Assembly (NCBI GenBank): GCA_947564645.1
Contig: CANOCU010000030.1
Coordinates: forward strand, 1-41,458
Length of the DNA: 41,458 nucleotides
Reading direction: 5' to 3'
From: an uncultured Lachnospiraceae bacterium
GTDB lineage: Bacteria; Bacillota; Clostridia; Lachnospirales; Lachnospiraceae
Part shown: positions 11,780-35,620 of the stretch, in pieces
Position numbering within the stretch: the stretch's first letter is position 1
How the letters are laid out: every line of letters begins with the position of its first letter
The notes under the pieces: generated by a model
What the model was told of the DNA's origin: nothing
What the model saw: only the letters and a program-made list of their open reading frames with translations
Databases searched by the model: none
Program-made: the position numbers and the translations under genes

Positions 11780-11784
11780 ATTAA

Positions 11785-11848: not shown

Positions 11849-11890
11849 AAATCTATATCATCAAGTAAAATTTTTCGGGAGGGATGTAGT

Positions 11891-12724: not shown

Positions 12725-12741
12725 AAGGGGAAAGGGAATAA

Positions 12742-16019: not shown

Positions 16020-16049
16020 TGCTGTAGCCTTTTATATTGTGTTGTGTTT

Positions 16050-16116: not shown

Positions 16117-16180
16117 ATTTTTACCTGCCGGATGTGGGTATAAAATAAGGATATCAATCAAAAAAGGAGGGACTTTTATT

Positions 16181-17569: not shown

Positions 17570-17586
17570 ACTTACATCATGCCACA

Positions 17587-17654
17587 GCCTGCCGGTTGGC
17601 GGGCCGAAGGAAACGGTAACAGCGGTGAGGGGAGCGTCTGATGCGGCGTTCCCC
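17587..17654 (+). promoter_or_regulatory. Two intercistronic hairpins after the binding-protein gene
   Basis: GCCTGCC/GGCGGGC (17587-17593/17598-17604) and GGGGAGCG/CGTTCCCC (17629-17636/17647-17654) each fold with one wobble pair and neither has a T-run. Such hairpins between binding-protein and permease genes commonly stabilise the upstream mRNA or reduce read-through, giving more binding protein than permease. Confidence 0.55.
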
Positions 17655-17683
17655 TTCATGCTCCCAACAGGAGAGAATATTTC

Positions 17684-19374: not shown

Positions 19375-19423
19375 GGATTATATGCCGAAAGAAATCAGAA
19401 ATTTTCAATCGCGAGATTTGTGT

Positions 19424-19469
19424 CTGCGCGCTGCTTGCCACAAACTCGGTATTCGTAAAAGCAGCGCAG
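19424..19469 (+). promoter_or_regulatory. Long intercistronic hairpin before the second glycosidase gene
   Basis: CTGCGCGCTGCTT (19424-19436) pairs with AAGCAGCGCAG (19459-19469), with two extra bases bulged on the left arm. There is no T-run. It ends 14 bp before ATG 19484 and so lies in the leader of that gene; it may control its translation or mRNA processing. Confidence 0.5.
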
Positions 19470-19483
19470 AAATGGTGCATAAT

Positions 19484-20587
19484 ATGAAAAGAAAATGGAC
19501 ACAGAAAGAAATATGGAATTGGTATCAGGCGCAGCCCTGGATCACCGGATTTAATTTTATTCCCAGCGGCGCTATGGATGGTGCGGTCTGGATGCTGCAG
19601 GAATACGATCACGAAAATGCGTTTCGTGACGCTGCGAAAGAAATTGCATTGGCGGCCGGCCTGGGATTTAACAGCATCCGCTTTTTCGTCCCCTTCTATT
19701 TATGGCGGGTGCAGCATGACAGCTTTATGAAAAACTTTGAGGAATTTCTGTCACTTCTGGATAAGTATCATATGACAATGATGCCCATACTTTTTAATGA
19801 CTGCTGTGTGGCGAAGTCCAAGTATCGGGAGCCGGTCCTGGGTCCGCAGCCCGATCCCGTGCCCGGGTACTTTGGAGGGTCGGCAACGACGCCCTTTGAT
19901 GATGATACGCAGAACGGAGACACGGTAGGATATGACATAACCGACGAACCGGAGATGGAGCCGGTGGCAGAGGCTTATGTGAGGGAGATGGCGCGTACCT
20001 TTGGGCAGGATGACAGGATCCTGATCTGGAATATCTGGAATGAGGCCGGCAATTCCCAACGGATGGAAAAGTCGGTGCCATTGATGACAAAAGTATTCGG
20101 TTGGATGCGGGAGGAAGATGTAAAGCAGCCCCTGACTGCCGATGTATGGGGTGCAGGGGCCGATCATCCTTATGGTTGGCTGAAAAATCCCGGTATCTAT
20201 GCGGATGTGGAGCGTGTGGCCATCGAACTTTCGGATATTATTTCCTTCCACTTCTATGGGGACTATTCCCATGCCAGGATGTACATCAAACAGTTGAAGG
20301 AATTTGGGCGTCCGTTAGTCAACACGGAGTGGATGCACCGTCCATACCGCAGCCTGATCCAGACTCATCTGCCCCTGTGGAAGAAGGAGAAGATCGGCAG
20401 TTATTTCTTCGGATTTGTAAACGGCAAGGCACAGTTTCATTGTGTATGGGAATTTATCAAGGAGCTGCCCGACATTGATACCAGACTCTGGATGCATGAC
20501 ATTTTTCATTCCGATTTTACGCCTTATGATGAGGAGGAGATTGAGGTGATCAGAGCGTGTAATCGGGATAAGCGAATTTTCGATTGA
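19484..20587 (+). CDS. Cytosolic clan GH-A-like glycoside hydrolase
   Basis: 367 aa from ATG 19484. The frame extends to ATG 19382, but those 34 residues look non-conserved and overlap a hairpin; no candidate start has a strong ribosome site, so the start is uncertain. WYQAQPWITGFNFIPS is the usual start of this GH5-like group. IWNIWNEAGN carries the acid/base Glu (about E187) and LVNTEWMHRP the nucleophile (about E282). There is no signal peptide. As last gene of the YesMN-controlled importer operon it should cleave the imported oligosaccharide. Related in fold, not closely in sequence, to the enzyme at 451-1755. GH family and substrate unresolved. Confidence 0.83.
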   Translation: MKRKWTQKEIWNWYQAQPWITGFNFIPSGAMDGAVWMLQEYDHENAFRDAAKEIALAAGLGFNSIRFFVPFYLWRVQHDSFMKNFEEFLSLLDKYHMTMMPILFNDCCVAKSKYREPVLGPQPDPVPGYFGGSATTPFDDDTQNGDTVGYDITDEPEMEPVAEAYVREMARTFGQDDRILIWNIWNEAGNSQRMEKSVPLMTKVFGWMREEDVKQPLTADVWGAGADHPYGWLKNPGIYADVERVAIELSDIISFHFYGDYSHARMYIKQLKEFGRPLVNTEWMHRPYRSLIQTHLPLWKKEKIGSYFFGFVNGKAQFHCVWEFIKELPDIDTRLWMHDIFHSDFTPYDEEEIEVIRACNRDKRIFD

Positions 20588-20728: not shown

Positions 20729-22003
20729 ATGTATATAGAACGAGTATCTATCAGGAATTATAGAGCTGTAAAGGATATGGATCTTATCTTTACCCCGGGA
20801 GTGAATCTGCTGATCGGTGATAATGGATGCGGTAAAACTTCTGTGCTGGAGGCTGTTGCAGTAGCCTTGTCCGGTGTGCTTAAGGGAGTCGCAGGAGTTC
20901 CGGTAAAGAATATTCTACAGGATGAGATTCATTTTACATTGGAAAAAAGGGGAGATGCTTCTTCGGAAATACATTTTGAGACGCCGACGGAAATAGCATG
21001 TGTGTTGAAGGCACAGGGAAAAGAGTTCTGGTGGAAGAGATCCCGCGAACATGAGAGCGGCAATACCCGGACGAAGATGGAAGAAGACGGGGTTGTCAGC
21101 TGGATGAGGAAGATATCGAATGATCCGGATGCAATGCTGCCGCTTTTCTGTTTTCAGAGTGATGCAAGAATCTGGCAGATGCGTCGAGGTGATTTTGCCA
21201 AAGAATTAAAGAAAAAATTAAACGACAGGCGTTGCGGATATATAGGGTGTCTCGACTATTCACTGGACATCAGGGGGATCCAGGCATGGTGCCTGAAGAT
21301 GGAATTAAATGCATTTCAGAAAAAACGCGAAATTAAGGAGTACGAGGCGTTTAAAGAAAGAGTGGCTGGTTTTATGCAGAAGATCAGTGATCTGGATGAG
21401 CGGCCGGAGCTTTATTTTTCCAGTCAGTTGGAACAACTGGTGTATCAGGAGAAGGATGAAGCCATGCCGGTTTCCAATTTGAGTGCCGGGTATCAATCAT
21501 TGTTATGGATGGTCATGAATCTGACGTATAGACTTGCGCTGTTAAATCCAGAAAAATGGGAGGCTATGGAAGAGGCAGAAGGAATTGTATTGATTGATGA
21601 GATCGATATGCATTTACATCCCAAATGGCAATGGAACATTATCTCTGCGTTGGAAGAGACGTTTCCTAATGTTCAGTTTATTCTGGCGACACATTCACCA
21701 ATCGTGATTTCTTCCTGTAAGAATGAACGGATGATCATGATTGCGGAAGATCAGGAAGTTATATATCTGGAAGATGCCTATGGGTATTCGGTGCAGGATG
21801 TGCTGAACTTTCGACAGGGAACGACGGAGAGGCCAAGGGAGATTAAGAAATTGACAGGACTGTTTGAAGAAGCGATAGAGCAGGATGAATTGGAGCAGGC
21901 AGAAAGACTGATAGAAAAAATGTCAGAAATACTTGGAAGTGACCATATAGACGTACGTGGGGCCAGGGATGAATTGCGGCTGAATCGCTGGGAGGATGCA
22001 TAA
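20729..22003 (+). CDS. ptuA: Septu defence ATPase PtuA (SMC/ABC-like AAA ATPase)
   Basis: 424 aa. MYIERVSIRNYRAVKDMDL is the typical start of RecF/SMC-like ATPases. Walker A is GDNGCGKTS (K36), the ABC-type signature is VSNLSAGYQSLLW (about 250-262), Walker B is GIVLIDEIDMHLHP (D290, E291), and the His switch is in FILATHSPIVISS. The C-terminal 80 residues are helical. The HNH gene ptuB starts 4 nt after its stop. PtuA and PtuB together form Septu, an anti-phage system; no reverse transcriptase is nearby, so this is stand-alone Septu and not a retron. Composition is more AT-rich than the flanking sugar genes. Confidence 0.85.
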   Translation: MYIERVSIRNYRAVKDMDLIFTPGVNLLIGDNGCGKTSVLEAVAVALSGVLKGVAGVPVKNILQDEIHFTLEKRGDASSEIHFETPTEIACVLKAQGKEFWWKRSREHESGNTRTKMEEDGVVSWMRKISNDPDAMLPLFCFQSDARIWQMRRGDFAKELKKKLNDRRCGYIGCLDYSLDIRGIQAWCLKMELNAFQKKREIKEYEAFKERVAGFMQKISDLDERPELYFSSQLEQLVYQEKDEAMPVSNLSAGYQSLLWMVMNLTYRLALLNPEKWEAMEEAEGIVLIDEIDMHLHPKWQWNIISALEETFPNVQFILATHSPIVISSCKNERMIMIAEDQEVIYLEDAYGYSVQDVLNFRQGTTERPREIKKLTGLFEEAIEQDELEQAERLIEKMSEILGSDHIDVRGARDELRLNRWEDA

Positions 22004-22006
22004 GAA

Positions 22007-22753
22007 ATGCTTTATATCAGGAAAGGAACTCCACCGGGAGAAATGAGACGCGCGGTAAGTACGATCAGAAGCAGCCCGGAGTGGAAAGCAATACAAGAAG
22101 GTGATACAAAGGCTGTGCGCGCGGAATTTGATAAACTGCCAAAGGAGATCATTCGTCAAAGTCTGTTGGAAGATCAGCATTATTTATGTGCATATTGTAT
22201 GCGGAAATTGAGGAATGATGGACGGAGTACGATCATTGAGGATTGGGATCCGTTAAGTCACAGCAAGGAACGTGCATTAGATTACGAAAATATGCTGGCG
22301 GTGTGTGATGGTGGAAGGAACTGGAAGGGGAGTGGGCAGCCTGTTTTGTGCTGCGATGCCTGCAAGGCAGATGAAACAGAACTTCTGATTTCGCCGTTAA
22401 ATAAACAGCAGATGGACAGGATCGTATATGATAAAGACGGTTTTATTAGGACGAGTCCAAAACATATGCAATTAGATATAGAATTGAATGATGTGCTTTG
22501 TTTAAACGGCATATGGAAGAAAGGCCGCTTTGTTGCAGATACATCCACAGGACTGGTCAAGGGAAGGCATGATGCGTATCTGCGTTATAAAAGATTTATT
22601 ACGAAATTAGGCAAGAGCGGAAGTTGTACTTCCGCAAAAATAAAAAAGAAAATAAATGAATTAGAGAATGACAGACAGAGACAGGAATATGCTGGCGTTC
22701 TGCTCTATTTCCTAAATAAAAAGTATAATGTTCTGCTCAGGCAGGGGAAATAG
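22007..22753 (+). CDS. ptuB: Septu HNH endonuclease-like protein PtuB
   Basis: 248 aa. Zinc-knuckle cysteines LCAYC (C61, C64) and VLCCDACK (about C116, C119) frame an HNH-type beta-beta-alpha region with IIEDWDPLSHSKERALDYENMLAVCDGG. This order matches PtuB/TIGR02646 proteins. The position that is normally the catalytic His (IEHW or IEHF) is Asp79 here; His85 lies nearby. So the nuclease may be altered, or may use another base. The gene follows ptuA directly and converges on the LacI-family gene. The C-terminal part is helical and basic. Confidence 0.8.
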   Translation: MLYIRKGTPPGEMRRAVSTIRSSPEWKAIQEGDTKAVRAEFDKLPKEIIRQSLLEDQHYLCAYCMRKLRNDGRSTIIEDWDPLSHSKERALDYENMLAVCDGGRNWKGSGQPVLCCDACKADETELLISPLNKQQMDRIVYDKDGFIRTSPKHMQLDIELNDVLCLNGIWKKGRFVADTSTGLVKGRHDAYLRYKRFITKLGKSGSCTSAKIKKKINELENDRQRQEYAGVLLYFLNKKYNVLLRQGK

Positions 22754-22787: not shown

Positions 22788-23807
22788 TCACACCGGCGTC
22801 ACGCAGGAGAACCGCTTCACAAGCCGCGCCGCGATCTCCACTTTGGAGGTATGGACGACCTTGGAATCGATCTGCTCGATCAGCAGTCTGGCGGCGGTCC
22901 TGCCGATGTAGAGGCGGGGCACATCCATGGTGGTGAGCGCCGGTTCGATGATCCGGCCTTCGGAGATATTGTCGAAGCCGATGAAGGAGATATCCTCGGG
23001 AATCCGGTAGCCGCGGAGCATCAGCGCCTTCATGGCACCGATGGCGATGATATCGTTGTCGGCAAAATAACATTTGGCAAGGGGATCTTTGCGGTCAATG
23101 ATCTCCAACATATCGGCCATGGCTGCCTCGATGGACGGGGAAAGCTTATGGATGACGGAACGGGATGGGGACATCCCGTTCTCCTTGATCGCTTTGAAAT
23201 AGCCTTCCTGCCGCTCGATAAAGTTGGGGATCAGATAACTGGACTGCAGATAGCCGGGCTGCAGCCTGGTACCGGCGATCAGATAGTTGGTGGCGATATA
23301 AGCCCCCTGGGCGTTATTGATCAGTACGCTGGTGCAGTCAAGACCGTCGAAATAGGCGTCTAACAGGATCAGCGGATAGCCGAGAGAGAGAAACTGCCGG
23401 CAGACATCCTGCCTGATCTCCGTGCCGATCAGGATAATGCCCTTACAGTCGGAAATACGCAGATCCGAGAAACAGTCTTCCAGCACGTCCACCTTCTCAT
23501 AGAACTGCATCATCTTTACCGTAAAGTGTTCTTTCTGGCATTCGCTTTTGATCCCGTCGTATAACTCATTAAAGATAGGAGAATAAGAGAGGATCGCGTT
23601 ATGTGTCCTGTAAAAAATGATATAGATGGAGCCGCTGTGAGCGGGATCGCGTTTTACTTTAGTAAAGTCGTAGCCGTATTCTTCGGCCGCTTTGATGATC
23701 CTGGCGCGGGTTTCGGTGCTGACGCCGGCTTTATTATTCAGCGCCATGGAAACGGCAGTGGCGGAAATCCCCAGTTTCTGTGCTAATTCTTTGGCTGTGA
23801 CGGACAT
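22788..23807 (-). CDS. LacI-family transcriptional regulator
   Basis: 339 aa. The N-terminal HTH and hinge are clear: VTAKELAQKLGISATAVSMALNNKAGVSTETRARIIKAAEEYGYD. The periplasmic-binding-like sensor domain follows (GSIYIIFYRTH, IILIGTEI, PLILLDAYFDG, CYFADNDIIAIGAMKAL, ISFIGFDNI, and the usual LTTMDVP). It is divergent from the isomerase-transketolase-kinase operon across a 282-bp gap that contains two inverted repeats, so it most likely represses that operon until a pathway sugar binds. Its 3' end converges on ptuB. Confidence 0.93.
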   Translation of the reverse strand: MSVTAKELAQKLGISATAVSMALNNKAGVSTETRARIIKAAEEYGYDFTKVKRDPAHSGSIYIIFYRTHNAILSYSPIFNELYDGIKSECQKEHFTVKMMQFYEKVDVLEDCFSDLRISDCKGIILIGTEIRQDVCRQFLSLGYPLILLDAYFDGLDCTSVLINNAQGAYIATNYLIAGTRLQPGYLQSSYLIPNFIERQEGYFKAIKENGMSPSRSVIHKLSPSIEAAMADMLEIIDRKDPLAKCYFADNDIIAIGAMKALMLRGYRIPEDISFIGFDNISEGRIIEPALTTMDVPRLYIGRTAARLLIEQIDSKVVHTSKVEIAARLVKRFSCVTPV

Positions 23808-23920: not shown

Positions 23921-24017
23921 TTTAGTAGAAAAACTAAATATTTGCAAGGAATAAAGTGAGAATAAAGTAAAATACACTTTATTATTTGTTGAAATAAAGC
24001 CGCATCTGCCATAATCT
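23921..24017 (+). promoter_or_regulatory. Operator candidates and promoter of the isomerase operon
   Basis: TTTAGT-N6-ACTAAA (23921-23938) and AATAAAGT-N7-ACTTTATT (23961-23983) are perfect inverted repeats; AATAAAGT is also directly repeated at 23950. TTGAAA (23989-23994) with 17 bp to TAATCT (24012-24017) is the best promoter. Both dyads lie just upstream of it, between the divergent LacI-type gene and the operon. LacI family operators are usually dyads of this size; which one is bound is not known. Confidence 0.55.
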
Positions 24018-24089: not shown

Positions 24090-25499
24090 ATGGCAAAGAT
24101 CAGACTTGGGTTCGCTCCGACCAGACGGAGTATCTTCAGTGCACCGGCAGCGGTAGAGTATGCTGACTACACGAGGAAGAAGCTGAAAGAGTTGGGGGTT
24201 GATTTCGTGGATATCGACGATATCGCGGAGGACGGCCTGCTGCACGACGACGATGACAGGATCAGGATCGAGGAGAAATTTAAGAAGGAAAAGGTGGACG
24301 GTCTCTTCTTCCCGCACGGCAATTTCGGAACGGAATACGAAGTGGCAAGGCTGGCGAAGAACATGAACCTGCCGGTACTGCTCTGGGGTCCCCGGGATGA
24401 ATGTCCGGATGAAAAGGGAATCCGCCTGCGCGACAGCCAGTGCGGTATCTTTGCTACCGGCAAGGTGTTACGCAGATTCCGGGTGCCTTTTACCTATCTG
24501 ACCAACTGTAATCTGGAGGATCCGGAGTTTGCAGAGGGCATCAACCGGTTCCTGGCAGTCTGCAATGTGGTAAAGACTTTCCGGAGTATCCGCATCCTGC
24601 AGATCGGGCCGAGGCCTTTTGACTTCTGGTCCACGATGTGCAATGAGGGCGAACTGCTTGAGAAATTCAATATTCAGCTGGCGCCGATCCCCATGCCCGA
24701 GCTTACGGCGGAAATGAAGAAGGTGAAGGAAGAGGGCACGAAGGCGGCTGAGGTAGTGGCTTACTGCAGGGAGCATTTCAATATTGCGATCAAGGACGAA
24801 GAACTGCTGAACGTGGCGGCCCTGAAGGTTGCGATCCGGAACCTGGCAGACCGGTACGGATGCTCGGCAGGCGCGATCCAGTGCTGGAATGCATTGCAGG
24901 GCGAGATCGGCATTATGCCCTGTGCGGCGAATGCGCTGTTAAATGAAGAGGGATTCCCGGTAGTATGTGAGACGGATATCCATGGCGCCATCACCGCATT
25001 GATGGTGGAAGCGGCCGGTATGGACAAGAGCAGAGGATTCTTCGCGGACTGGACCGTTCGCCATCCGTTCAACGACAACGGCGAGCTGCTGCAGCACTGC
25101 GGACCGTGGCCTTTAAGCTGTGCGTCCTGCAAGCCGACCATCGGTTATCCGCTGGCATTCTCCCATCCGGGCGCCGTGGAGGCGGAGGCGAAGCACGGTG
25201 ACCTGACGCTGGCACGTTTTGACGGCGACAATGGCGAGTACTCCCTGCTGCTTGGCAATGCGAAGGGAATCGAGGGACCGTACACGAAGGGGACTTACCT
25301 CTGGATCGAGGTGGAGAACTGGCCGAGACTGGAAGCGAAGATCGTGGAAGGGCCGTATATCCATCACTGCGTAGGCATCCACCAGGATGTGGTGCCGGTG
25401 CTGTATGAGGCGTGTAAGTATATCGGCGTGAAACCGGATCTGTACGATGATGTGGAACAGCAGGTGATCGATACGATCCATGGCATTCAGAAGAAGTAA
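24090..25499 (+). CDS. L-fucose/L-arabinose isomerase-family aldose-ketose isomerase
   Basis: 469 aa from ATG 24090, with GGAGG at 24080-24084; ATG 24048 in frame is less likely. The fold is that of fucose isomerase-like proteins: an N-terminal Rossmann-like part (DGLFFPHGNFGTEYEVARLAKNMNLPVLLWGPRDE) and a C-terminal catalytic part. VCETDIHGA (E294, D296) provides metal ligands as in L-fucose isomerase, with a further His in YIHHCVG (H425/426). It opens the operon that contains a two-subunit transketolase and an FGGY kinase, so it should convert an aldopentose or related sugar to the ketose that is phosphorylated next. D-apiose is a candidate substrate by context; D-arabinose or another pentose is possible. 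Confidence 0.85.
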   Translation: MAKIRLGFAPTRRSIFSAPAAVEYADYTRKKLKELGVDFVDIDDIAEDGLLHDDDDRIRIEEKFKKEKVDGLFFPHGNFGTEYEVARLAKNMNLPVLLWGPRDECPDEKGIRLRDSQCGIFATGKVLRRFRVPFTYLTNCNLEDPEFAEGINRFLAVCNVVKTFRSIRILQIGPRPFDFWSTMCNEGELLEKFNIQLAPIPMPELTAEMKKVKEEGTKAAEVVAYCREHFNIAIKDEELLNVAALKVAIRNLADRYGCSAGAIQCWNALQGEIGIMPCAANALLNEEGFPVVCETDIHGAITALMVEAAGMDKSRGFFADWTVRHPFNDNGELLQHCGPWPLSCASCKPTIGYPLAFSHPGAVEAEAKHGDLTLARFDGDNGEYSLLLGNAKGIEGPYTKGTYLWIEVENWPRLEAKIVEGPYIHHCVGIHQDVVPVLYEACKYIGVKPDLYDDVEQQVIDTIHGIQKK

Positions 25500-25535
25500 G
25501 GGTCCAATAAAAAAGAGAAAACAGGGAGGCAAAGA

Positions 25536-26390
25536 ATGAATAAACCAGAATTTGATGCAAAAGCATTGACAGTAAAATCGCTTGCACTTCGCAAGGTGGT
25601 GCTGGATATGATCATGAAGTCCGGCGGCGGCCATATCGGCGGTGACTTTTCGGTTATGGATACACTGGTAACGCTGTACTTTGACCAGATGAACGTAGGC
25701 CCGGAGAACCAGGACGATCCGAACCGCGACTATCTCATTATGAGTAAGGGACATTCCGTGGAAAGCTACTATGCGGTGCTGGCGGCGAAGGGATTCTTTG
25801 AGACGGAGACGGTGGTCAACGAGTTTTCCCAGTTCGGTTCCAAGTTTATTGGGCATCCGAACAACGAACTGCCGGGAATCGAGATGAACTCCGGTTCTCT
25901 CGGGCACGGCCTGCCGGTGAGCGTGGGTATGGCGATAGCCTGCCGGAAAGAGAACAGGCCCAGCCGTGTGTATACGGTGATGGGTGACGGTGAAGTGGCG
26001 GAAGGCTCCGTCTGGGAAGGCTTTATGGCGGCCGGACATTATAAGCTTTCTAATCTGTGTGCGGTGGTGGACCGGAACCATCTGCAGATCTCCGGCACGA
26101 CAGAACAGGTGATGACCCATGAGAACCTGCATGCACAGATCGAGAGCTTCGGATGGAATGTGATCGAGACGGAGGGAAATGATATCGCGAAGCTGCACGA
26201 GGCATTCGAGCAGGCGAAGACCGTGACCGACAGGCCGACCTGCATCATCGCGAATACGATCAAAGGCTACGGCGGCGGTGAGATCATGGAGAATAAGGCC
26301 GCATGGCATCATCATGTACCAAATAAAGAGGAATACGAGGAAATCGTAAAAGCATTAGAGGCTAAGAAGGAGGGCGTACTTCATGAATAA
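25536..26390 (+). CDS. Transketolase, N-terminal subunit (TPP-binding)
   Basis: 284 aa, SD AGGGAGG upstream. It holds the thiamine-diphosphate/Mg half of transketolase: SGGGHIGGDFS, MSKGHSVESYYAVLA, SGSLGHGLPVSVGMA, GDGEVAEGSVWEG (GDG at 150-152) and VVDRNHLQ (N181). Full-length transketolase is about 660 aa, so this is a genuine split enzyme whose partner overlaps by 8 nt downstream. In an isomerase/kinase operon it would transfer a two-carbon unit from the phosphorylated ketose to glyceraldehyde 3-phosphate. Two-subunit transketolases are known for apulose 4-phosphate (AptA/AptB) and for ordinary pentose phosphates; sequence alone does not decide. Confidence 0.92.
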   Translation: MNKPEFDAKALTVKSLALRKVVLDMIMKSGGGHIGGDFSVMDTLVTLYFDQMNVGPENQDDPNRDYLIMSKGHSVESYYAVLAAKGFFETETVVNEFSQFGSKFIGHPNNELPGIEMNSGSLGHGLPVSVGMAIACRKENRPSRVYTVMGDGEVAEGSVWEGFMAAGHYKLSNLCAVVDRNHLQISGTTEQVMTHENLHAQIESFGWNVIETEGNDIAKLHEAFEQAKTVTDRPTCIIANTIKGYGGGEIMENKAAWHHHVPNKEEYEEIVKALEAKKEGVLHE

Positions 26391-27324
26391 GATTCCTAAC
26401 AGGCAGGCAATCTGCGAGACACTGATGGCACATGCCAAAGAAGACAAACATATCTACGCGCTGTGTTCCGACTCCAGAGGTTCGGCGTCCATGACTCCTT
26501 TCTTCAATGCCTTTCCGGAGCAGTCCATCGAGGTGGGCATCGCGGAGCAGAATCTGGTGAGTATCGCGGCCGGTATGGCGCACTGCGGAGAAAAGCCGTA
26601 CTGCTTTTCCCCGGCATGTTTTATTTCCACGAGAAGTTATGAGCAGGCGAAGGTGGACGTGGCTTACTCCAACACGAATGTGAAGCTGATCGGCATCAGC
26701 GGCGGTATCAGCTATGGGGAACTGGGTATGAGCCATCATTCGGCGCAGGATATCGCGGCTATGTCCGCGATCCCGAATATGAGAGTGTATCTGCCAAGCG
26801 ACAGGTTCCAGACGGCGAAGCTGATCGAGAGCCTGCTTATGGATGAGAAGCCTGCTTATGTGAGAGTGGGCCGTAATCCGGTGGAGGATATCTACAGCGA
26901 GGCGGACTGTCCGTTTACGATGGACCGGGCTACCGTACACGGAGATCTGGAGGCGGAGAACGACGTGGCGATCATTGCCTGCGGCGAGATGGTGCGTCCG
27001 GCCCTGGAGGCGGCGAAGATCCTGCAGGATAAGGGGATCAGGGCTGTGGTGGCGGATATGTACTGCGTGAAGCCTCTGGACGAAGATACGGTGGTAAAAG
27101 CGGCGAAGAGCGCGAAGCTGGTGATCACGGTGGAGGAGCATGCGCCTTACGGGGGCATGGGAAGCGCCGTTGCCGTTGCAGTGGGGGCAGCGTGCCCGAA
27201 GAAGGTAATTACCATGGCATTGCCGGACGATCATGTGATCACCGGAAAATCCGGCGCGGTGTTTGATTATTATGGATTGAACGGAGAAGGGATCGCGAAG
27301 AAGGCGATGGAGAATCTTGTCTAA
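26383..27324 (+). CDS. Transketolase, C-terminal subunit
   Basis: 313 aa, overlapping the N-terminal subunit gene by 8 nt, so the two are coupled. It holds the pyrimidine-binding half: VGIAEQNLVSIAAGMA with E55, which activates the TPP cofactor, then YCFSPACFISTRSYEQAKVDVAY, GEMVRPALEAAKIL and EEHAPYGGMGSAVA of the C-terminal regulatory domain. The length matches other split C-subunits. Function and context as for the preceding subunit. Confidence 0.92.
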   Translation: MNKIPNRQAICETLMAHAKEDKHIYALCSDSRGSASMTPFFNAFPEQSIEVGIAEQNLVSIAAGMAHCGEKPYCFSPACFISTRSYEQAKVDVAYSNTNVKLIGISGGISYGELGMSHHSAQDIAAMSAIPNMRVYLPSDRFQTAKLIESLLMDEKPAYVRVGRNPVEDIYSEADCPFTMDRATVHGDLEAENDVAIIACGEMVRPALEAAKILQDKGIRAVVADMYCVKPLDEDTVVKAAKSAKLVITVEEHAPYGGMGSAVAVAVGAACPKKVITMALPDDHVITGKSGAVFDYYGLNGEGIAKKAMENLV

Positions 27325-27404
27325 GTGAAATCCGGACGGCAGACCGGCCCGGAACCGCCTGTGTATCGGCATAGTTTGCAGTGACAAGATGTAAGGAGAA
27401 AAAT

Positions 27405-28892
27405 ATGGGGAATAAATATATAATCAGCATTGATCAGAGTACCCAGGGTACCAAGGCGCTGCTTTTCAGTGAAAAAGGGGAGCTGTGTGTGCGCACGGAT
27501 CTGTCGCACAGGCAGATCGTCAATGAGCAGGGGTGGGTTTCCCATGACGGGGAGGAAATCTACCGGAATACGATGCAGGTGATCCGCAATGTTCTGGAGC
27601 AGGCGAAGGTAAGCCCGGATGACGTGGCGGGTATCGGCATCAGCAACCAGCGGGAGACGGCCATCTTGTGGGACCGGGAGACGGGGAAGCCCATGGACCA
27701 TGCGGTCGTGTGGCAGTGTGCGCGGGCGGCCGGGATCTGTGAGAGAAAAGAGATTCAGGATATGGCGGAGCAGGTCAGACTTAAGACCGGGCTTAAGCTG
27801 TCGCCCTACTTTACGGCGGCCAAGATCTGCTGGCTTCTGGAAAATGCGGAGGGTGCGGCCGGGAAGGCAAAGCAGCACAAAGTGTGTCATGGCACGATGG
27901 ATGCCTATCTGGTCTACAGGATGACGAAGGGTGAGGTTTATGCGACGGATTATTCCAACGCTTCCAGGACGCAGCTTTTTAATATCTTCGAACTGAAATG
28001 GGACGAGGAGATCTGCAGGGCATTTGGCATCGATGCGGCGGATCTGCCGGAGGTAAGAGACTCCAACGCCTGCTTCGGGTATACGGACTGCGAAGGGCTT
28101 TTTGCGAAGCCGGTGCCAATCCATGCGGTGATGGGGGATTCCCATGCGGCGCTTTTCGGGCAGAACTGCAGGAGTGACGGCAAGACAAAGGTGACCTACG
28201 GAACGGGATCGTCCATCATGATGAATATCGGGTATACGCCGATCCTGAGTAAGAACGGACTGGTGACATCGCTTGCCTGGGGCTTAAGCGGTAGACCGGA
28301 ATATGTGCTGGAAGGCAATCTGAATTATACGGGGGCGGTGATCTCCTGGCTGAAAGATGATGTGAAGCTGATCGGGAGCGCGTCCGAGACGGAAGCACTG
28401 GCGAACGAGGCGAACAAGGAGGACGGGCTGTATCTGGTGCCGGCGTTTACCGGCCTTGGCGCGCCTTATTGGGACAGCAATGCCAGAGCGGCTATCATCG
28501 GGATGGACAGAACGACAGGGAAGGCCGAACTGACAAGGGCGGCGCTGGAGAGCATCGCTTATCAGATCACGGATATCGTCCGGGCTATGGAGAAGGATTC
28601 CGAGAAGCGGATCGAGGTATTGCGGGTGGACGGCGGTCCCACGAAGAACCGCTATCTGATGCAGTTCCAGAGCGATATTGCGGGCAGCGAGGTCGCCATA
28701 TCGACGATCGAGGAGTTGTCCGGCACGGGTGCGGCTTTCATGGCCGGCATGGCTTTAGGCTTGTGGGGAGAGGAAATTTTTGATACCATAAACTGGAACC
28801 AGGTAACGCCGCAGATGGAAGAGAATATCCGGGAGAGGAAATTTGCAGGCTATAAGGATGCGGTAGAGCTGGTCAGAACGGGCGAGTCATGA
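27405..28892 (+). CDS. FGGY-family carbohydrate kinase (ketose kinase, glycerol-kinase-like)
   Basis: 495 aa from ATG 27405, with AAGGAG at 27393-27398; the frame opens at 27381. The N-terminal ATPase-fold loop is SIDQSTQGTKALLF, followed by ISNQRETAILWDRETGKPMDHAVVWQCAR, GDSHAALFGQ with catalytic base D245, TYGTGSSIMMNIG, FTGLGAPYWDSNARA and VDGGPTKNRYLMQFQ. Several of these read more like glycerol kinase than xylulokinase, but the operon (isomerase, transketolase) indicates a ketose substrate such as apulose or xylulose. An FGGY apulose kinase is part of the known apiose route. Substrate is unproven. Confidence 0.9.
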   Translation: MGNKYIISIDQSTQGTKALLFSEKGELCVRTDLSHRQIVNEQGWVSHDGEEIYRNTMQVIRNVLEQAKVSPDDVAGIGISNQRETAILWDRETGKPMDHAVVWQCARAAGICERKEIQDMAEQVRLKTGLKLSPYFTAAKICWLLENAEGAAGKAKQHKVCHGTMDAYLVYRMTKGEVYATDYSNASRTQLFNIFELKWDEEICRAFGIDAADLPEVRDSNACFGYTDCEGLFAKPVPIHAVMGDSHAALFGQNCRSDGKTKVTYGTGSSIMMNIGYTPILSKNGLVTSLAWGLSGRPEYVLEGNLNYTGAVISWLKDDVKLIGSASETEALANEANKEDGLYLVPAFTGLGAPYWDSNARAAIIGMDRTTGKAELTRAALESIAYQITDIVRAMEKDSEKRIEVLRVDGGPTKNRYLMQFQSDIAGSEVAISTIEELSGTGAAFMAGMALGLWGEEIFDTINWNQVTPQMEENIRERKFAGYKDAVELVRTGES

Positions 28893-28985
28893 GACAGGTG
28901 ACTGCGGCCGGGCAGCTGATCCGGTGTGATCGGTATGTGGCAAAGAGCAGACTGGACAAAGAGGAGTATTGAGGAGGTAAAGTGG

Positions 28986-30539
28986 ATGCAGCAAGTGGAG
29001 AAATGGGGCCTTTTTGAAGTGAGCAGCAAGGGTAAGAGCGATGGCAATCCGTTTCGCGATTACGCGATGACTGTTACTTTCAAGGGCGACAAGGAAGAGA
29101 TCACCGTCAACGGATTCTATGACGGAGACGGTATCTATAAGGCAAGGTTCATGCCCTCTTATGAGGGGACTTATACGTATAAGATCGAGGGGGATTTTGC
29201 AGATGCGATCGAGGATGCGGAAGGTTCCTTCGAGGCGGTGGCGCCGTCGGCGAATAACCATGGACCGGTAGTAGTGGTGGACAAGGTACATCTGGGATAT
29301 GCGGATCATACCCCTTACTATTCGATCGGAACGACCTGCTATGCGTGGGTGAACCAGCCGATGGAGCGGCAGGAGCAGACGCTTAAGACCTTGAAGAACA
29401 ATGCGTTTAACAAGATCAGGTTCTGCTTTTTCCCCAAGTTCTACGAATTTAACAGGAAAGAGCCGTTGACGTATCCTTTTGAGAGAGGAAACGGAGAAGG
29501 CCTGGACCCGGAGCGTGTGGAGCAGGAGAAATCCTGCCGGATGAGATTCCCGGGTATGCAGGAAACGGAACAGGATTACGCGTTTGATTATACGAGGCCC
29601 AATGTAGAGCATTTCAGACGTTATGACATGCGGATTGCCCAGCTCATGGAGCTGGGCGTCGAGGCGGACATGATCCTGATGCACCCTTATGATAAATGGG
29701 GCTTAAATGAGATGGGTAAGGATGCCTGCGACTGGTATCTGAGATATGTGGTGGCAAGATACGGCGCCTACAGGAACGTGTGGTGGTCGCTGGCCAATGA
29801 GTTTGATTTTATCCGGATTAAGACACCGGAAGACTGGGAGCGTTACGGTCAGATCGTATCTTCCAGTGATCCGTTCCACAGGCTGTTATCGGTACATAAC
29901 GGCGGCCCCAACTATGATTTCTCCAGGGACTGGGTGACGCACTGTTCTCTGCAGAGAGTGGACTTCTACCGGACCACCGAGGATACGGATCAGTTCGTGG
30001 AGAAGTATGGCAAGCCGGTGGTGTGGGACGAGATCTGTTATGAAGGCAATATCGGTTTGGGCTGGGGCAATATTACCGGACAGGAACTGGTGAGAAGATT
30101 CTGGGAGGCTTTCATGCGGGGCGGCCACTGCGGCCACGGCGAGACCTTCATGGATCCGGAGGATATCCTCTGGTGGTCCCACGGCGGTATCCTGAAAGGG
30201 GAAAGCCCGGCAAGGCTGCGTTTCCTGCTGGAGATCCTGAAGGACGTGCCGGGCGGTTATCTGACTAAGGGCGAAGGTATCTTCGACGAGGTAGTGGGAT
30301 GTGCCGGCGGCCATGTAGGCGAAGGCTGGGGCATTTGCTATGACTTTGCGATCCACTATCTGGGCGTCTGCCAGCCAACTTACAGACAGCTGACGCTTCC
30401 GGAAGATGCGGATTACGAGGTGGATGTGATCGATACATGGAATATGACGGTCACGCCGATGGGAGTAAAGAGAGGAATCTGTAGGATCGAGCTGCCGGGG
30501 AACCAGTATATGGCGCTGCGGGTACGCAAGGTATCGTAA
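28986..30539 (+). CDS. DUF5060 / apiosidase-like (DUF4038) / DUF5605 glycoside hydrolase
   Basis: 517 aa from ATG 28986, with GAGGAGG at 28971-28977; in-frame ATG 28926 lacks such a site. An N-terminal beta-sandwich (about 1-85, WGLFEVSSKGKSDGNPFRDYAMTVTF, FYDGDGIYKARFMPSYEGTYTYKIEG) fits DUF5060. The central TIM barrel has TCYAWVNQ, NKIRFCFFPKFYEFN, VWWSLANEFDF with acid/base E272, and VVWDEICYEGN with nucleophile E349 or E353. A C-terminal beta domain (about 450-517) fits DUF5605. There is no signal peptide. DUF4038 is the fold of GH140 beta-apiosidases, and the pathway genes upstream make an apioside a plausible substrate. The terminator follows at 30592. Confidence 0.82.
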   Translation: MQQVEKWGLFEVSSKGKSDGNPFRDYAMTVTFKGDKEEITVNGFYDGDGIYKARFMPSYEGTYTYKIEGDFADAIEDAEGSFEAVAPSANNHGPVVVVDKVHLGYADHTPYYSIGTTCYAWVNQPMERQEQTLKTLKNNAFNKIRFCFFPKFYEFNRKEPLTYPFERGNGEGLDPERVEQEKSCRMRFPGMQETEQDYAFDYTRPNVEHFRRYDMRIAQLMELGVEADMILMHPYDKWGLNEMGKDACDWYLRYVVARYGAYRNVWWSLANEFDFIRIKTPEDWERYGQIVSSSDPFHRLLSVHNGGPNYDFSRDWVTHCSLQRVDFYRTTEDTDQFVEKYGKPVVWDEICYEGNIGLGWGNITGQELVRRFWEAFMRGGHCGHGETFMDPEDILWWSHGGILKGESPARLRFLLEILKDVPGGYLTKGEGIFDEVVGCAGGHVGEGWGICYDFAIHYLGVCQPTYRQLTLPEDADYEVDVIDTWNMTVTPMGVKRGICRIELPGNQYMALRVRKVS

Positions 30540-30591
30540 AAATATTGTCATCTGTCGGCTTGCAGCCGCACAGGCAGAAATATCGTTGAGC

Positions 30592-30629
30592 TTCACGCTG
30601 ATCGCTTCGGTGGTCGGCGTGAATTTTTT
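30592..30629 (+). terminator. Strong terminator of the isomerase-to-glycosidase operon
   Basis: TTCACGC (30592-30598) pairs with GCGTGAA (30617-30623); the stem continues through GATC/GGTC with wobble pairs, and six T follow (30624-30629). Confidence 0.9.
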
Positions 30630-30729
30630 GTTTGCTTTTTTATTGCAGATATTATCCTGTCGCGGCTTTTATTTTTATACGGTGTTTGGTAGAATAAAGG
30701 ATAACAACAATATCCGTGAGGAGGTAAAG

Positions 30730-32331
30730 ATGGGAGTATATCTCAATCCCGGGAACAGTGGATTTACCGGAATTCGAAATGATATCTATGTAGATAAAAG
30801 CGGCCTCATCAGCCTGGTCAATGAGACGATCGAGACGCCAAGGCGCCTGACCTGTGTCAGCAGACCGCGCCGTTTCGGCAAATCTTTTGCGGCGCAGATG
30901 CTGTGCGCTTATTATGACAAAACCTGTGATTCGGCGGCGCTGTTTGATGATCTGGAAATTGCCGGAAATGAGAAATGGAATCAAAGTTACAGGAAACATC
31001 TGAACCAATATGATGTGATCTATCTGGATATAACGTATGTGAAGCCGTTCACGGATCATTATAAGAATGCGCCGGCTTATATCAGCAGGAAGATCACGGA
31101 AGAACTGGCGGCGGCATATCCGGGGCTGGAAGTCAGCGATGAGCTGCCTGCGACTATGGTCCGCGCCACTGAGCTGACCGGCAGCAAATTTATCATGATC
31201 ATTGACGAGTGGGATGCGCCGATCCGGGAAGAGCCCGGGATGCAGAGGGAATATCTCGAGTTTCTACGGATGCTGTTTAAGAGCAGCGGCACGACCAATA
31301 AGATCTTTGCGGCGGTTTATATGACGGGAATTTTGCCGATCAAGAGGGACGGCGGTCAGTCGGCGATCTCGGATTTCAGGGAATATACGATAATTAAGCC
31401 GAGGGGATTTGCAGAATATATGGGATTCACGGAGCGTGAAGTAAGAAAACTCTGTGATGACTGTGGCTGCAGCTTCAAACAGATGAAGCATTGGTACGAT
31501 GGCTATACGCTTCAACATGTTGGATCCGTATATAATCCAAATTCGGTAATGGCCGCTATTCACAATGGGGACTTTGACTCATACTGGACTCGCACTTCGG
31601 CGGCAGAAAGCCTGATGGGATATATCAGCCTGGACTTTGACGGATTGTCAGGGACAATAACAGAACTGATCGGTGGCGGAAAGGCTAAGGTAGACATCCA
31701 TGGATTTGTCAATGATTTTGTGACATTTAAAAATCGGGATGACGTACTAACACTATTGATCTGTCTGGGATATCTGGCCTACGATGAGACGACGGGTTTT
31801 GCCCGTATACCCAATGAGGAGATACGCCTGGAGTTTGCAAGAGTCATCCGTGATGTGAAACGTGACGATACGATCCGGCGGATCCGGGAGAGCGATCAGC
31901 TTATCCTGGATACGGTTCAGGAGAACGCGGAGGCGGTGGCGGCCCAGATCGAGAAGATCCATGCGGAAGAAGCGCCGCTGCATTACAATAACGAACAGGC
32001 GCTGCGCAGCGTGATCAAGCGGGCTTATTTCAGCTATGGAGATGAATATGTGCTGTTTGAGGAGCTGCTGGCGGGAACAGGATATGCGGATATTGTGTAT
32101 CTTCCGAAGCGGGGTTCCACGCTGCCGGCACTGGTGATCGAATTAAAGTGGAACCAGGCGGCAGGGAGTGCGCTGGCGCAGATCCGAAATCGTGACTATC
32201 CGGCAGCGCTTAAGGAATTTGGCGGAGAGATCCTGCTTGTGGGCATCAGTTACGACAAAGGAGCGCCTGCGGGATCAAGAAAGCATAGCTGTGTGATAGA
32301 GAAGGTGTCGCCTGACGGATGTTCGGAATGA
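30730..32331 (+). CDS. AAA-ATPase-like / PD-(D/E)XK nuclease-fold protein
   Basis: 533 aa from ATG 30730, with GAGGAGG at 30719-30725; the frame opens at 30586 inside the upstream terminator and is not used. Residues about 6-215 match the AAA-ATPase_like family (PF09820): VYLNPGNSGFTGIRNDIYVDKSGLI, Walker A SRPRRFGKS (K51) and Walker B MIIDEWDAP (D159, E160). The C-terminus is a PD-(D/E)XK domain (PF08011): GYADIVYLP (D454) and VIELKW (E471, K473). Such genes are present in many copies in Lachnospiraceae and Bacteroidetes; function is not established, with mobile-element or defence roles suggested. It sits alone between two sugar operons. Confidence 0.9.
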   Translation: MGVYLNPGNSGFTGIRNDIYVDKSGLISLVNETIETPRRLTCVSRPRRFGKSFAAQMLCAYYDKTCDSAALFDDLEIAGNEKWNQSYRKHLNQYDVIYLDITYVKPFTDHYKNAPAYISRKITEELAAAYPGLEVSDELPATMVRATELTGSKFIMIIDEWDAPIREEPGMQREYLEFLRMLFKSSGTTNKIFAAVYMTGILPIKRDGGQSAISDFREYTIIKPRGFAEYMGFTEREVRKLCDDCGCSFKQMKHWYDGYTLQHVGSVYNPNSVMAAIHNGDFDSYWTRTSAAESLMGYISLDFDGLSGTITELIGGGKAKVDIHGFVNDFVTFKNRDDVLTLLICLGYLAYDETTGFARIPNEEIRLEFARVIRDVKRDDTIRRIRESDQLILDTVQENAEAVAAQIEKIHAEEAPLHYNNEQALRSVIKRAYFSYGDEYVLFEELLAGTGYADIVYLPKRGSTLPALVIELKWNQAAGSALAQIRNRDYPAALKEFGGEILLVGISYDKGAPAGSRKHSCVIEKVSPDGCSE

Positions 32332-32459
32332 AGTACCGTACTTTTCATGGGAATTTGTGGCAGAGATGACATGGAGGTGCAAGTATCACGGCGTTACCGG
32401 GTTTGGCCGGAGGCTGCGAATCGTAACAGGAAAGACGACGCGGCAGAATGGGAGCAGAC

Positions 32460-33602
32460 ATGAAGGTTGTATTACAGAACTTGACGAAAAAATTCCCCGG
32501 CAGGGGCAGAAAACACGCGGAGGAAGTGACGGCAGTCAATGATTTCACCTTCGAGATCCCGGACGGGGAACTGGTGGGGCTCTTAGGGCCTTCCGGCTGC
32601 GGGAAGAGCACGACGCTCAATCTGATCAGCGGGCTTTTGAAGCCCACCGGCGGACGGATCTTTTTCGGGGAAGATGATATCACCGAGCTGCCGCCGGAGA
32701 ACAGGGGCGTCGGCCTGGTTTTTCAGAATTATGCGCTTTATCCGCATCTTACGGTGAAGCAGAATATCCTGTTCCCGCTTCAAAATCTGAAGGGGAAGGA
32801 CAAGCTGTCAAAAGCGGTCATGCTGGAGAAAGCAAACGAGGCTGCGAGGCTGGTGCAGATAGACGAGCTGATGGACCGCAAGCCCGGAGAGCTTTCGGGC
32901 GGGCAGCAGCAGAGAGTGGCGATCGCGCGTGCACTTGTGAAGATGCCGGATGTGCTGCTGCTTGACGAGCCTTTATCGAATCTGGATGCCCGCCTGCGTC
33001 TTCAGACCAGAGAGGAGATCCGGCGGATCCAGAAGGAGACGGGGATCACCACCGTCTTCGTGACCCATGATCAGGAGGAGGCGATGAGCATCTCCGACAG
33101 GATCGTGGTGATGAAGGACGGCATCGTACAACAGATCGGGAAGCCGCAGGCAGTCTATGACGATCCGGTCAATCTGTTTGTGGCCAGGTTCCTCGGTACA
33201 CCGCCGATCAATGTGTTTGCGGGGCGGTGCAGGGACGGCAGACTGTATGTGGGACAGGATGCGGTGCTTGGTGTTTCGGGCATTGCCGACCAGGAAGTTT
33301 ATGTAGGGGTAAGGCCGGAGGGCTTCGTGCTCTGCGAGGACGGCCCTTTTGTCTGCAGGTTTGGCAGTGTGGAGGTGATGGGCCGTGACATCAGCGTGGT
33401 TTCCGAACATGATGCATCCGTTGGTCCGACAGTCCGGGCGATCATCAGCGCGGAGAACCGGGTGGATACGACAAACGGTACGGTTCGGTTTTCCCTGAAG
33501 CCGCAGAAGGTGTTTCTTTTCAGCAAGGAGACAGAGGAGAGGATTCAGGGCGGCATAACGGAATGCATAAATGGCGTTACTATGAGCGGCCGGAGACTGT
33601 GA
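32460..33602 (+). CDS. Sugar ABC transporter ATPase, MsmX/UgpC-type
   Basis: 380 aa from ATG 32460, preceded by GGGAG; ATG 32448 is an alternative. Walker A GPSGCGKST (K49), Q-loop FQNYALYPHLTV, signature LSGGQQQRVAIARAL (about 144), Walker B LLLDEPLSNLDA and H-loop VTHDQEEAM are intact. The C-terminal OB-fold regulatory domain has YVGVRPEG, as in UgpC/MsmK. These ATPases often energise several importers; the importer at 16181-19374 lacks one, so sharing is plausible. An insertion (GKDKLSKAVM) lies in the helical domain. Permeases and a binding protein follow in the same direction. Confidence 0.93.
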   Translation: MKVVLQNLTKKFPGRGRKHAEEVTAVNDFTFEIPDGELVGLLGPSGCGKSTTLNLISGLLKPTGGRIFFGEDDITELPPENRGVGLVFQNYALYPHLTVKQNILFPLQNLKGKDKLSKAVMLEKANEAARLVQIDELMDRKPGELSGGQQQRVAIARALVKMPDVLLLDEPLSNLDARLRLQTREEIRRIQKETGITTVFVTHDQEEAMSISDRIVVMKDGIVQQIGKPQAVYDDPVNLFVARFLGTPPINVFAGRCRDGRLYVGQDAVLGVSGIADQEVYVGVRPEGFVLCEDGPFVCRFGSVEVMGRDISVVSEHDASVGPTVRAIISAENRVDTTNGTVRFSLKPQKVFLFSKETEERIQGGITECINGVTMSGRRL

Positions 33603-33642
33603 AGAGTAGCACTGGCGTGGATGTTTGGAAAGGAGTGCGGAG

Positions 33643-34551
33643 ATGATGAGGAAGAAATGGAGGGACAGCGGCCTGAAAGGCTGGCTGTATCTTTTGCCGG
33701 CGATTCTTTTTCTGGGGGTTTTTATGGTATATCCCCTGATCGACGTTTTCATCTATTCTTTCGAGGAGGGGTATAATTCCGCTTCGCAGACCAGTTTCGG
33801 GGTTGGCGTTTATAATTATTCTTATGTGCTGCACGATCCGTATTTCCTGCAGGCAGTCAGGAATACCTTTCTGCTGGTGATCATTACGGTACCGCTTTCC
33901 ACAGGGATCGCGCTGTTAGTCTCCGTGGGGCTTAATTCCATCGGACCGCTGCGGAATCTGTTTCAGACGATCTACTTCCTGCCTTATGTGACGAACACGC
34001 TGGCGGTGGGGCTGGTGTTTATGATCCTTTTCAAGAAGACGGTGTACTCGGACGGGCTGATCAATCTGTTACTCACATGGTTTGGCGGGTCTCCCGTTGA
34101 CTTTATCGACGGACCGTACTGTGCGAAGATGTTTGTCCTGTGCTTCTATACGATCTGGGTGGTGCTGCCCTTTAAGATCCTGATCCTGACCAGCGCGCTC
34201 GCCTCGGTAGACAGGCAGCTCTATCAGGCGGCGAGGGTGGACGGTACCTCGGGCTTCCGGATCTTTATGAGGATCACGCTGCCGATGATCGCGCCGATGA
34301 TCTTCTATCTGATCATTACAGGGTTTATCGGCGCCTTCAAGGCTTACAGCGATGTGGTCGCTCTGTTTGGGACGAACTTAAATGCGGCGGAAATGAACAC
34401 CATCGTGGGCTATGTCTACGATATGCTCTACGGGGACAGCGGCGGCTATCCTTCCTATGCTTCTGCGGCGGCAATCCTGCTGTTTGCGATCGTGCTGACG
34501 ATCACGTGTATCAATCTGCTGGTCAGCAAGCGAAAAATTCACTATGAATAA
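33643..34551 (+). CDS. Sugar ABC transporter permease, MalF/UgpA-type
   Basis: 302 aa from ATG 33643 with AAAGGAG at 33629-33635; ATG 33646 is adjacent. Six membrane segments, beginning GWLYLLPAILFLGVFMVYPLIDVFIYSF. The EAA loop is YQAARVDGTSGFRIFMRITLPMIAP (about 195-220). It lies 40 bp after the ATPase gene and pairs with the MalG-type permease downstream. The extracellular loop near GGSPVDFIDGPYC is slightly longer than usual. Confidence 0.93.
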   Translation: MMRKKWRDSGLKGWLYLLPAILFLGVFMVYPLIDVFIYSFEEGYNSASQTSFGVGVYNYSYVLHDPYFLQAVRNTFLLVIITVPLSTGIALLVSVGLNSIGPLRNLFQTIYFLPYVTNTLAVGLVFMILFKKTVYSDGLINLLLTWFGGSPVDFIDGPYCAKMFVLCFYTIWVVLPFKILILTSALASVDRQLYQAARVDGTSGFRIFMRITLPMIAPMIFYLIITGFIGAFKAYSDVVALFGTNLNAAEMNTIVGYVYDMLYGDSGGYPSYASAAAILLFAIVLTITCINLLVSKRKIHYE

Positions 34552-34679
34552 GGGGAGAACATGGATGACTATTTCGGAGCAGGCTGAAAGTAAGGGCGTA
34601 ATCCACAAGAGCCTGCGCGGCGGCTGAACAAATGAGCAGCGGCGGTTGATGTGAAGATGTAAAGAAGGAGAATCCCAGG

Positions 34680-35555
34680 ATGAATCATGGCAGAGACTAT
34701 ATTAGAATAGAGAGGACGGCCAGGGCCCGCAGGACTACGGCGAAAGCGGTCACGTATTTTTTGCTGGCGGTATGGGCGGTGATCGTGTTGTTTCCTTTTT
34801 ACTGGATGCTTTTGACGTCCGTTAAGAGTTACAGTGCGTATAACGCGGAGAATATTCCGCGGTTTTTTACCTTGTCGCCCACGCTGCAGAATTACGCGGA
34901 TGCCTTTACGGCGGTGCCGCTTGGCCGGTATCTTGTAAATACCACGATCTTCACCGTGCTGACCACGGCGTTGATGTTAGTGGTGATTACGCTGGCGGCT
35001 TTTGCCTTCGCAAGGCTTGATTTTCGGGGGAAAAATATGATGTTCGTGCTCTTTCTTTCCCTGATGATGATTCCCGGCGAACTGGTGATCATTACGAATT
35101 TCGTTACGGTCACGAACCTGGAATTGCGCAATACGTTTGCGGGACTGATCCTGCCTTCGGTTACCTCGGTCTTCTACATCTATCTGCTGAAGGAGAACTT
35201 CGAGCAGATACCGGACAGCCTCTATTACGCGGCCAAGGTGGACGGCACATCCGATCTGAAATATCTGTGTAAGGTGATGATCCCGATCTCGAAGCCCACA
35301 CTGATCACCATCACGATCCTGAAAGTGATCGAGTGCTGGAACTCTTATGTCTGGCCCAGACTGATCACGGATGACGAGAATTACTATCTGGTGTCCAACG
35401 GTATCCAGGAGATCCGGGAGAACGGATTCGGGCGAGAAAATATTCCGGCTATGATGGCGGCGGTTGTGGTCATCTCCGTTCCTCTGATCGTGCTGTTCCT
35501 GCTCTTCCGCAATAAGATCATGGCCGGGGTGTCGAGAGGCGGAATGAAGGGGTAG
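34680..35555 (+). CDS. Sugar ABC transporter permease, MalG-type
   Basis: 291 aa, AAGGAG at 34664-34669. Six membrane segments, first VTYFLLAVWAVIVLFPFYWMLLTSVKS. The EAA loop is YYAAKVDGTSDLKYLCKVMIPISKP (about 180-205), followed by WNSYVWPRLI and the GGMKG tail typical of the family. The 128-bp gap to the upstream permease holds no gene that I can support. It works with the permease at 33643 and the binding protein that follows. Confidence 0.93.
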   Translation: MNHGRDYIRIERTARARRTTAKAVTYFLLAVWAVIVLFPFYWMLLTSVKSYSAYNAENIPRFFTLSPTLQNYADAFTAVPLGRYLVNTTIFTVLTTALMLVVITLAAFAFARLDFRGKNMMFVLFLSLMMIPGELVIITNFVTVTNLELRNTFAGLILPSVTSVFYIYLLKENFEQIPDSLYYAAKVDGTSDLKYLCKVMIPISKPTLITITILKVIECWNSYVWPRLITDDENYYLVSNGIQEIRENGFGRENIPAMMAAVVVISVPLIVLFLLFRNKIMAGVSRGGMKG

Positions 35556-35620
35556 GATAGAGGCGCTTGTGCGGACAACGCTGATATGGGACATGATTTG
35601 AAGAAGGAATGGACAGGGCT

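Follow-up and report, generated by a model that had tools for sequence, protein, structure and literature searches.

An operon in a 41,458-nucleotide stretch of DNA from an uncultured Lachnospiraceae bacterium (contig CANOCU010000030.1; the whole stretch is called the window here) appears to encode a D-apioside catabolic unit, in which hydrolysis of an apioside would be followed by the transketolase pathway of apiose use with a different isomerase. We give this reading a probability of roughly 0.85. It draws on features read from the sequence, namely the anatomy of the operon, the clades to which its kinase and transketolase belong, the diagnostic residues that these enzymes share with their relatives, and the presence of an ApsI-type isomerase in place of its own in related operons. 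The pathway is known, and what is new is most likely this variant form with a non-ApsI isomerase. Apiose is found in rhamnogalacturonan II of pectin and in dietary flavonoid apiosides, and the D-apiose transketolase pathway (AptA/AptB, AplK, and ApsI) was reportedly described in Pectobacterium and relatives by Carter et al. in 2018. An initial annotation of the window had already suggested apiose catabolism; the clades of the transketolase and kinase support that suggestion, and the isomerase departs from it in not being ApsI.

The operon lies on the forward strand and has the parts that the initial annotation had listed. It opens with ISO, a FucI-family isomerase that we propose to be a D-apiose isomerase without being an ApsI orthologue (24090 to 25499), followed by the AptA-type N-terminal (TKN, 25536 to 26390) and AptB-type C-terminal (TKC, 26383 to 27324) subunits of a split transketolase, an AplK-type FGGY kinase and proposed apulose kinase (KIN, 27405 to 28892), and a DUF5060/apiosidase-like/DUF5605 hydrolase that may be an intracellular apiosidase (HYD, ~28986 to 30539). 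A LacI-family regulator (LacI and Peripla_BP_3 domains) diverges from it on the reverse strand (22788 to 23807). Transketolase_N in TKN, Transket_pyr and Transketolase_C in TKC, FGGY_N/C in KIN, DUF5060, Apiosidase, and DUF5605 in HYD, and LacI all score above the curated Pfam cut-offs, and direct reading finds a GGAG(G) ribosome site in front of all five starts from ISO to HYD. The 8-nucleotide overlap of the transketolase subunits was annotated correctly (26383 to 26390), as was the closing terminator, a 14-bp stem with a T run at 30592 to 30623, just beyond the annotated end at 30539 (z = -5.4 against shuffled sequences).

We infer the substrates, the direction of each step, the cytoplasmic site of hydrolysis, and the inducer as follows. 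An apioside would be taken up into the cell, where HYD would cleave off beta-D-apiose in the cytoplasm. ISO would then convert D-apiose to D-apulose, KIN would phosphorylate apulose at C4, and TKN/TKC would transfer a two-carbon ketol unit from apulose 4-phosphate to glyceraldehyde 3-phosphate, yielding xylulose 5-phosphate and dihydroxyacetone phosphate (DHAP), both of which are central metabolites. Presence of the sugar would cause the LacI regulator to free the operon.

The transketolase

TKN shares 41% identity with E. coli AptA and 42% with the other split transketolase of its own genome; TKC shares 34% with E. coli AptB. Because identity (41% versus 42%) by itself decides nothing, the assignment rests on the tree. 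A single branch with 100/100 support in this unrooted tree separates 27 Apt-side sequences from 23 other split transketolases; the window falls on the Apt side with AptA/AptB of apiose clusters, and the split transketolase of its own genome (L064) falls outside, as the GlpK-type kinase of that genome (L067) falls outside the AplK clade described below. This phylogeny bears out the placement with AptA/AptB, and not with pentose-phosphate enzymes, that the initial annotation had proposed to check. The tree comprised 50 of the 94 sequences in a quick tree, after exclusion of the long sequences L182, L212, and L217, the duplicate L065, and some of the window-type sequences and of the other split ones; L204, window-type by identity, clusters with the other split sequences and was counted there, and the Rhizobium locus L220 yielded no sequence. 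The quick tree concurs, with a support of 99 for a group of AptAB, Caballeronia, Streptomyces, window-type, ApsI-linked, and L212 sequences.

Residues sort the sequences in the same way. The accessible part of one study gives D469 of E. coli transketolase as an active-site residue (PMC5073344). The aligned site is leucine in all AptAB (6/6), ApsI-linked (4/4), and window-type (38/38) sequences, and aspartate (38) or glutamate (2) in the 40 others. Positions H124, K-C90, D-C92, Y-C111, and H-C119 divide the Apt, ApsI-linked, and window-type sequences from the rest as this site does. Among the sequences excluded from the tree, L212 and L217 have the Apt-type leucine there and L182 has tryptophan. 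Loss of the aspartate would be in keeping with a substrate of which a ketone (DHAP) remains.

Two other gene sets contain transketolases of note. In Caballeronia (L219:5995-10301), an AptAB-side cluster includes a GolD/DthD dehydrogenase and a DUF2291/ribose-type transporter, with no isomerase annotated in the stretch. A clostridial set (L121 and L122) combines an isomerase 29 to 30% identical to ISO with a single-frame transketolase of ~594 residues, and L122 also has a kinase of 21% identity.

The kinase

On score alone, KIN would be called a glycerol kinase or fall just short of one: it reaches 590.4 bits on the GlpK subfamily model NF000756 (cut-off, 498) and 582.5 bits on TIGR01311, narrowly missing the cut-off of 590.35, and its best Protein Data Bank (PDB) relatives are glycerol kinases. 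These results would suit a true glycerol kinase encoded beside a duplicate of an ordinary pentose-phosphate transketolase, as would the frequency with which genomes of the class carry TKN-matching transketolases (36 of 41, with the window's own and fused ones counted). We nevertheless regard that explanation as very unlikely, given that the trees and pocket residues set both enzymes apart and that the genome already has a GlpK-type kinase (L067) and a split transketolase (L064). In the kinase tree, AplK, ApsI-linked, and window-type sequences (21 in all) form one clade with 100/98 support, against 25 glycerol-kinase-like sequences, which agrees with the grouping that the initial annotation had anticipated. 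The tree took in 12 of 54 window-type, 25 of 29 GlpK-labelled, and 4 of 8 far sequences; L144, L032, L118, and L023, GlpK-labelled and in or near such operons, were excluded, and the long sequence L162, which a quick tree places on the AplK side, takes a basal position here.

Two changed pocket residues are common to the clade. GlpK Q246 and F270, which we take to be glycerol-binding pocket residues (numbered from the PDB alignment), are serine and serine in 5/5 AplK, 4/4 ApsI-linked, and 52/52 window-type sequences (61 in total), are serines in KIN as well, and remain glutamine and phenylalanine in 25/25 GlpK-like sequences; L001, L104, L023, L032, L118, and L144 are not part of this count.

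The isomerase

Domain models leave the isomerase label of ISO soft. Fucose_iso_C scores 26.0 bits, under the Pfam cut-off of 29.3, and the sole NCBIfam match is the sulfoquinovose isomerase model NF048012, at 97.2 bits with a cut-off of 700. This match led us to consider the sulfo-transketolase pathway, in which a sulfoquinovose isomerase acts with SqwGH, and we rejected it on the low score and the missing genes: the operon has no sulfoacetaldehyde enzyme or second isomerase, and the described route, in the accessible part of its source, has no kinase (PMC11659671). Our transketolase trees were built without SqwGH, for which we found no reference sequence, and we consider a sulfoquinovose operon extremely improbable. 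A sulfoquinovose-isomerase-like gene in Faecalicatena faecalis scores 413.8 bits, and the listed transketolases of that genome are located elsewhere.

Known apiose clusters appear to differ in their first step. According to the part of PMC13001218 available to us, the E. coli SE15 cluster has aplK, aptA, and aptB named by locus tag, three E. coli strains carrying it, as well as E. fergusonii, grow on D-apiose, and apsI is present in Pectobacterium and absent from Escherichia, where two short-chain dehydrogenase/reductase (SDR) oxidoreductases are proposed to replace the missing isomerase. The window resembles the Escherichia cluster in AptA/AptB and AplK and differs from it in having ISO in place of the two oxidoreductases. 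In Rahnella, Sodalis, and a Klebsiella plasmid, AptA, AptB, a 472-residue FucI-family gene, and an FGGY kinase are consecutive, behind a transporter composed of a solute-binding protein (SBP), DUF2291, RbsA, and RbsC. This Pectobacterium-type arrangement shares with the window the clades of the split transketolase and kinase and the 8-nucleotide AptA/AptB overlap. It differs in that the isomerase of the window belongs to another FucI-family clade, its regulator is LacI where the enterobacteria have a sugar-binding regulator, and its operon includes an apiosidase-like hydrolase without a signal peptide.

We propose the role of ISO from its position in the operon and from its replacement in related operons. 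A query with ApsI gave matches at E <=1e-10 in 136 of 291 genomes of the class, and we examined eight ApsI-clade loci with wide flanks. In five (L107 to L110 and L217), an Apt-type transketolase and an AplK-type kinase adjoin an ApsI-type isomerase 39 to 45% identical to that of Rahnella, and HYD is present in four of these. One of them, L109, and L214, whose ISO-type isomerase is 61% identical to that of Listeria, carry sister transketolases (100/100) and the same gene order, TKN-TKC-HYD-KIN; what distinguishes them beyond these genes is the isomerase, together with a LacI gene. Because an ApsI-type isomerase accompanies this kind of transketolase and kinase in five genomes of the same class, the two isomerase types look interchangeable, and our main argument that ISO does the work of ApsI is that the latter takes its place in these operons. 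E294, D320, H336, H425, and H426, which presumably form the metal site, are common to ISO and the ApsI-type sequences (23/23 aligned). What stands of the isomerase annotated initially is a FucI-family gene in the operon; it is not an ApsI orthologue. Pectobacterium has ApsI for the first step, and a pair of oxidoreductases has been proposed for it in Escherichia; ISO would add a third way, which would make the isomerase a changeable step of the pathway.

The hydrolase and sugar uptake

The apiosidase-like catalytic domain of HYD exceeds its curated cut-off (55.6 bits versus 26.5), as expected of a GH140-type apiosidase, the family to which we take PF13204 to correspond; unlike such enzymes, HYD has DUF5060 in front and DUF5605 behind. 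We found no assigned activity for the DUF5060/DUF5605 hydrolase family, and the single PDB match of HYD is 4n0r, a putative glycoside hydrolase. N271-E272 and E349 are conserved in 18 aligned members, and inspection by eye revealed no signal peptide.

Relatives of the operon were collected as 59 loci found by the isomerase in a genome collection, with gene presence called by set thresholds. As in the Pectobacterium-type clusters, an SBP resembling that of Rahnella occurs in nine of them (49 to 59% identity; the E. coli SE15 SBP is at 44%), all Lachnospiraceae, near the isomerase and usually with DUF2291, RbsA, and RbsC. The one such SBP tested, from L043, matched PDB entries 5ibq and 4ry0 best (363 bits), with 209 bits for 2fn8 and at most 105 for E. 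coli-type ribose-binding protein; 5ibq holds apiose and 4ry0 ribose. A nucleoside-hydrolase-family gene stands near the operon in eight loci, including L051:13714-14643, L012:13702-14586, and L054:13868-14797 (Pfam IU_nuc_hydro was run on the L051 gene); its product may be a furanosidase that works on apiofuranosides.

Evidence weighing against apiose

Several observations count against our reading. ISO is 25 to 27% identical to the Rahnella, Klebsiella, and Sodalis isomerase taken as ApsI, whose identity is itself deduced from gene position, and the isomerase tree separates 18 ApsI-side sequences (100/99) from 17 ISO-side sequences (100/100), with the enterobacterial and clostridial ApsI types joined at 89/72. 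Three of the eight ApsI-clade loci, L111 (45%), L112 (37%), and L113 (35%), lack the Apt-type transketolase and AplK-type kinase, and ApsI-like genes do not prove apiose use. The kinases of L109 and L214 do not clearly emerge as sisters in their tree (80/62), and ISO relatives of 43 to 61% identity occur in other contexts; at L119, one adjoins a kinase of 25% identity, and no transketolase was found there. The same side takes in the GlpK score of KIN, its Y135, which is leucine in AplK, the missing root of the transketolase tree, and the weak score of HYD on the apiosidase model. No RbsBAC-type transporter adjoins the window operon. RbsD and RbsK, which mark ribose use, are found in six and five related loci, some with the Rahnella-like SBP, so this protein may serve ribose.

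The operon could accordingly serve another pentose or ketose, such as nucleoside ribose, D-arabinose, or erythrulose, within an Apt/AplK clade wider than apiose. The RbsD and RbsK genes and the eight nucleoside-hydrolase-like genes would agree with this, as would the Caballeronia dehydrogenase cluster, which shows neither kinase nor isomerase over the stretch read, and the other kinases beside ISO relatives. Set against it are the kinase and transketolase of the window, nearest to clusters that PMC13001218, as far as accessible, ties to growth on apiose, the occurrence of an apiosidase-like hydrolase at 23 of the 59 loci, and the five related operons that have an ApsI-type isomerase where the window has ISO. 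We judge another sugar to be unlikely and favor the apioside reading.

Distribution and a related operon in Listeria

All four of ISO, TKN, TKC, and KIN are present in 50 of the 59 loci. The nine that seem to miss at least one enzyme gene are L018, L019, L034, L046, L049, L057, L059, L060, and L062. Of these, L049 is a contig of just 3.6 kb, and the L060 gene is a paralogue in a genome whose operon lies elsewhere (L215). The subunit overlap is exactly 8 nucleotides in 43 of 54 TKN/TKC pairs, and a LacI of the window's cluster is present in 47 of 62 clustered sources. The closest relatives of ISO (97%) come from uncultured Lachnospiraceae; named carriers in the collection include Blautia parvula, Eisenbergiella tayi, and two Faecalicatena species, and beyond it the operon occurs in Listeria monocytogenes and in Monoglobus pectinilyticus. 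When 398 genomes were drawn evenly across the phylum, 11 of them, counting that of the window, encoded an ISO relative at E <=1e-120, and 5 of the other 10 have transketolase genes within ~1.5 kb on either side. A literature search that was short of most subscription papers turned up no paper on this operon among the matches listed; Carter et al. 2018, said in the accessible part of PMC13001218 to have reported apiose use by Clostridia, may list such clusters.

The Listeria monocytogenes locus (L104, 4004-13086) corresponds to lmo1031-1036, mapped by gene order, plus the preceding LacI gene. LacI, ISO (69%), TKN, TKC, and KIN follow the order of the window; where the window has HYD after the kinase, Listeria has a beta-glucoside phosphotransferase system (PTS) followed by a full-length Apiosidase-domain protein (313 bits over residues 3-318 of 320). 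Relatives of the latter protein and of the PTS occur in L114 at 44% and 42%. The Listeria genes look like an apioside operon, and our guess is that the PTS imports an apiosyl glucoside. In the part of PMC2996996 available to us, lmo1031-1036 appear as hypothetical, transketolases, glycerol kinase, PTS, and hypothetical, and lmo1031, 1032, 1033, and 1036 are listed as absent from L. innocua, with lmo1034 and 1035 present. It is probable that gut Lachnospiraceae, Monoglobus, and Listeria share an apioside operon in which a non-ApsI D-apiose isomerase has been swapped in place and the apiosidase-like hydrolases, one of them of the DUF5060/DUF5605 type, are intracellular and interchangeable. Such an operon would give gut Firmicutes a specific gene set for apiose and would correct "glycerol kinase" and "hypothetical" labels on genes of this kind, lmo1031-1036 included.

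Regulatory sequences and neighboring genes

The gap between the LacI gene and ISO holds two palindromes, both weak candidates. The first, a possible operator, is a perfect TTTAGT-N6-ACTAAA at 23921 to 23938; its exact form occurs in 4 of 72 upstream stretches, the window counted, and it is the single site in the window, with at least one site at 2 mismatches in 52 of 100 shuffles. The second, AATAAAGT-N7-ACTTTATT at 23961 to 23983, was searched for within the window.

Two sets of ATP-binding cassette (ABC) transporter genes flank the operon (16106-19374 and 32448-37237). The genes at 10427-20587 encode a beta-lactamase-family protein, a BD-FAE esterase, a histidine kinase with an AraC-type response regulator, an SBP, two permeases, and a GH5-like protein, and this cluster may supply plant glycosides to the apiose operon. 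Between the sugar ABC/GH5-like cluster and the LacI gene is a two-gene Septu-type defense pair (20729-22753), composed of an AAA ATPase (479 bits on the PtuA model) and a PtuB-like protein (131 bits). An AAA-ATPase-like/PDDEXK_9 protein is encoded immediately past the terminator (30586-32331), and L006 and L010 also have relatives of it close to the operon.

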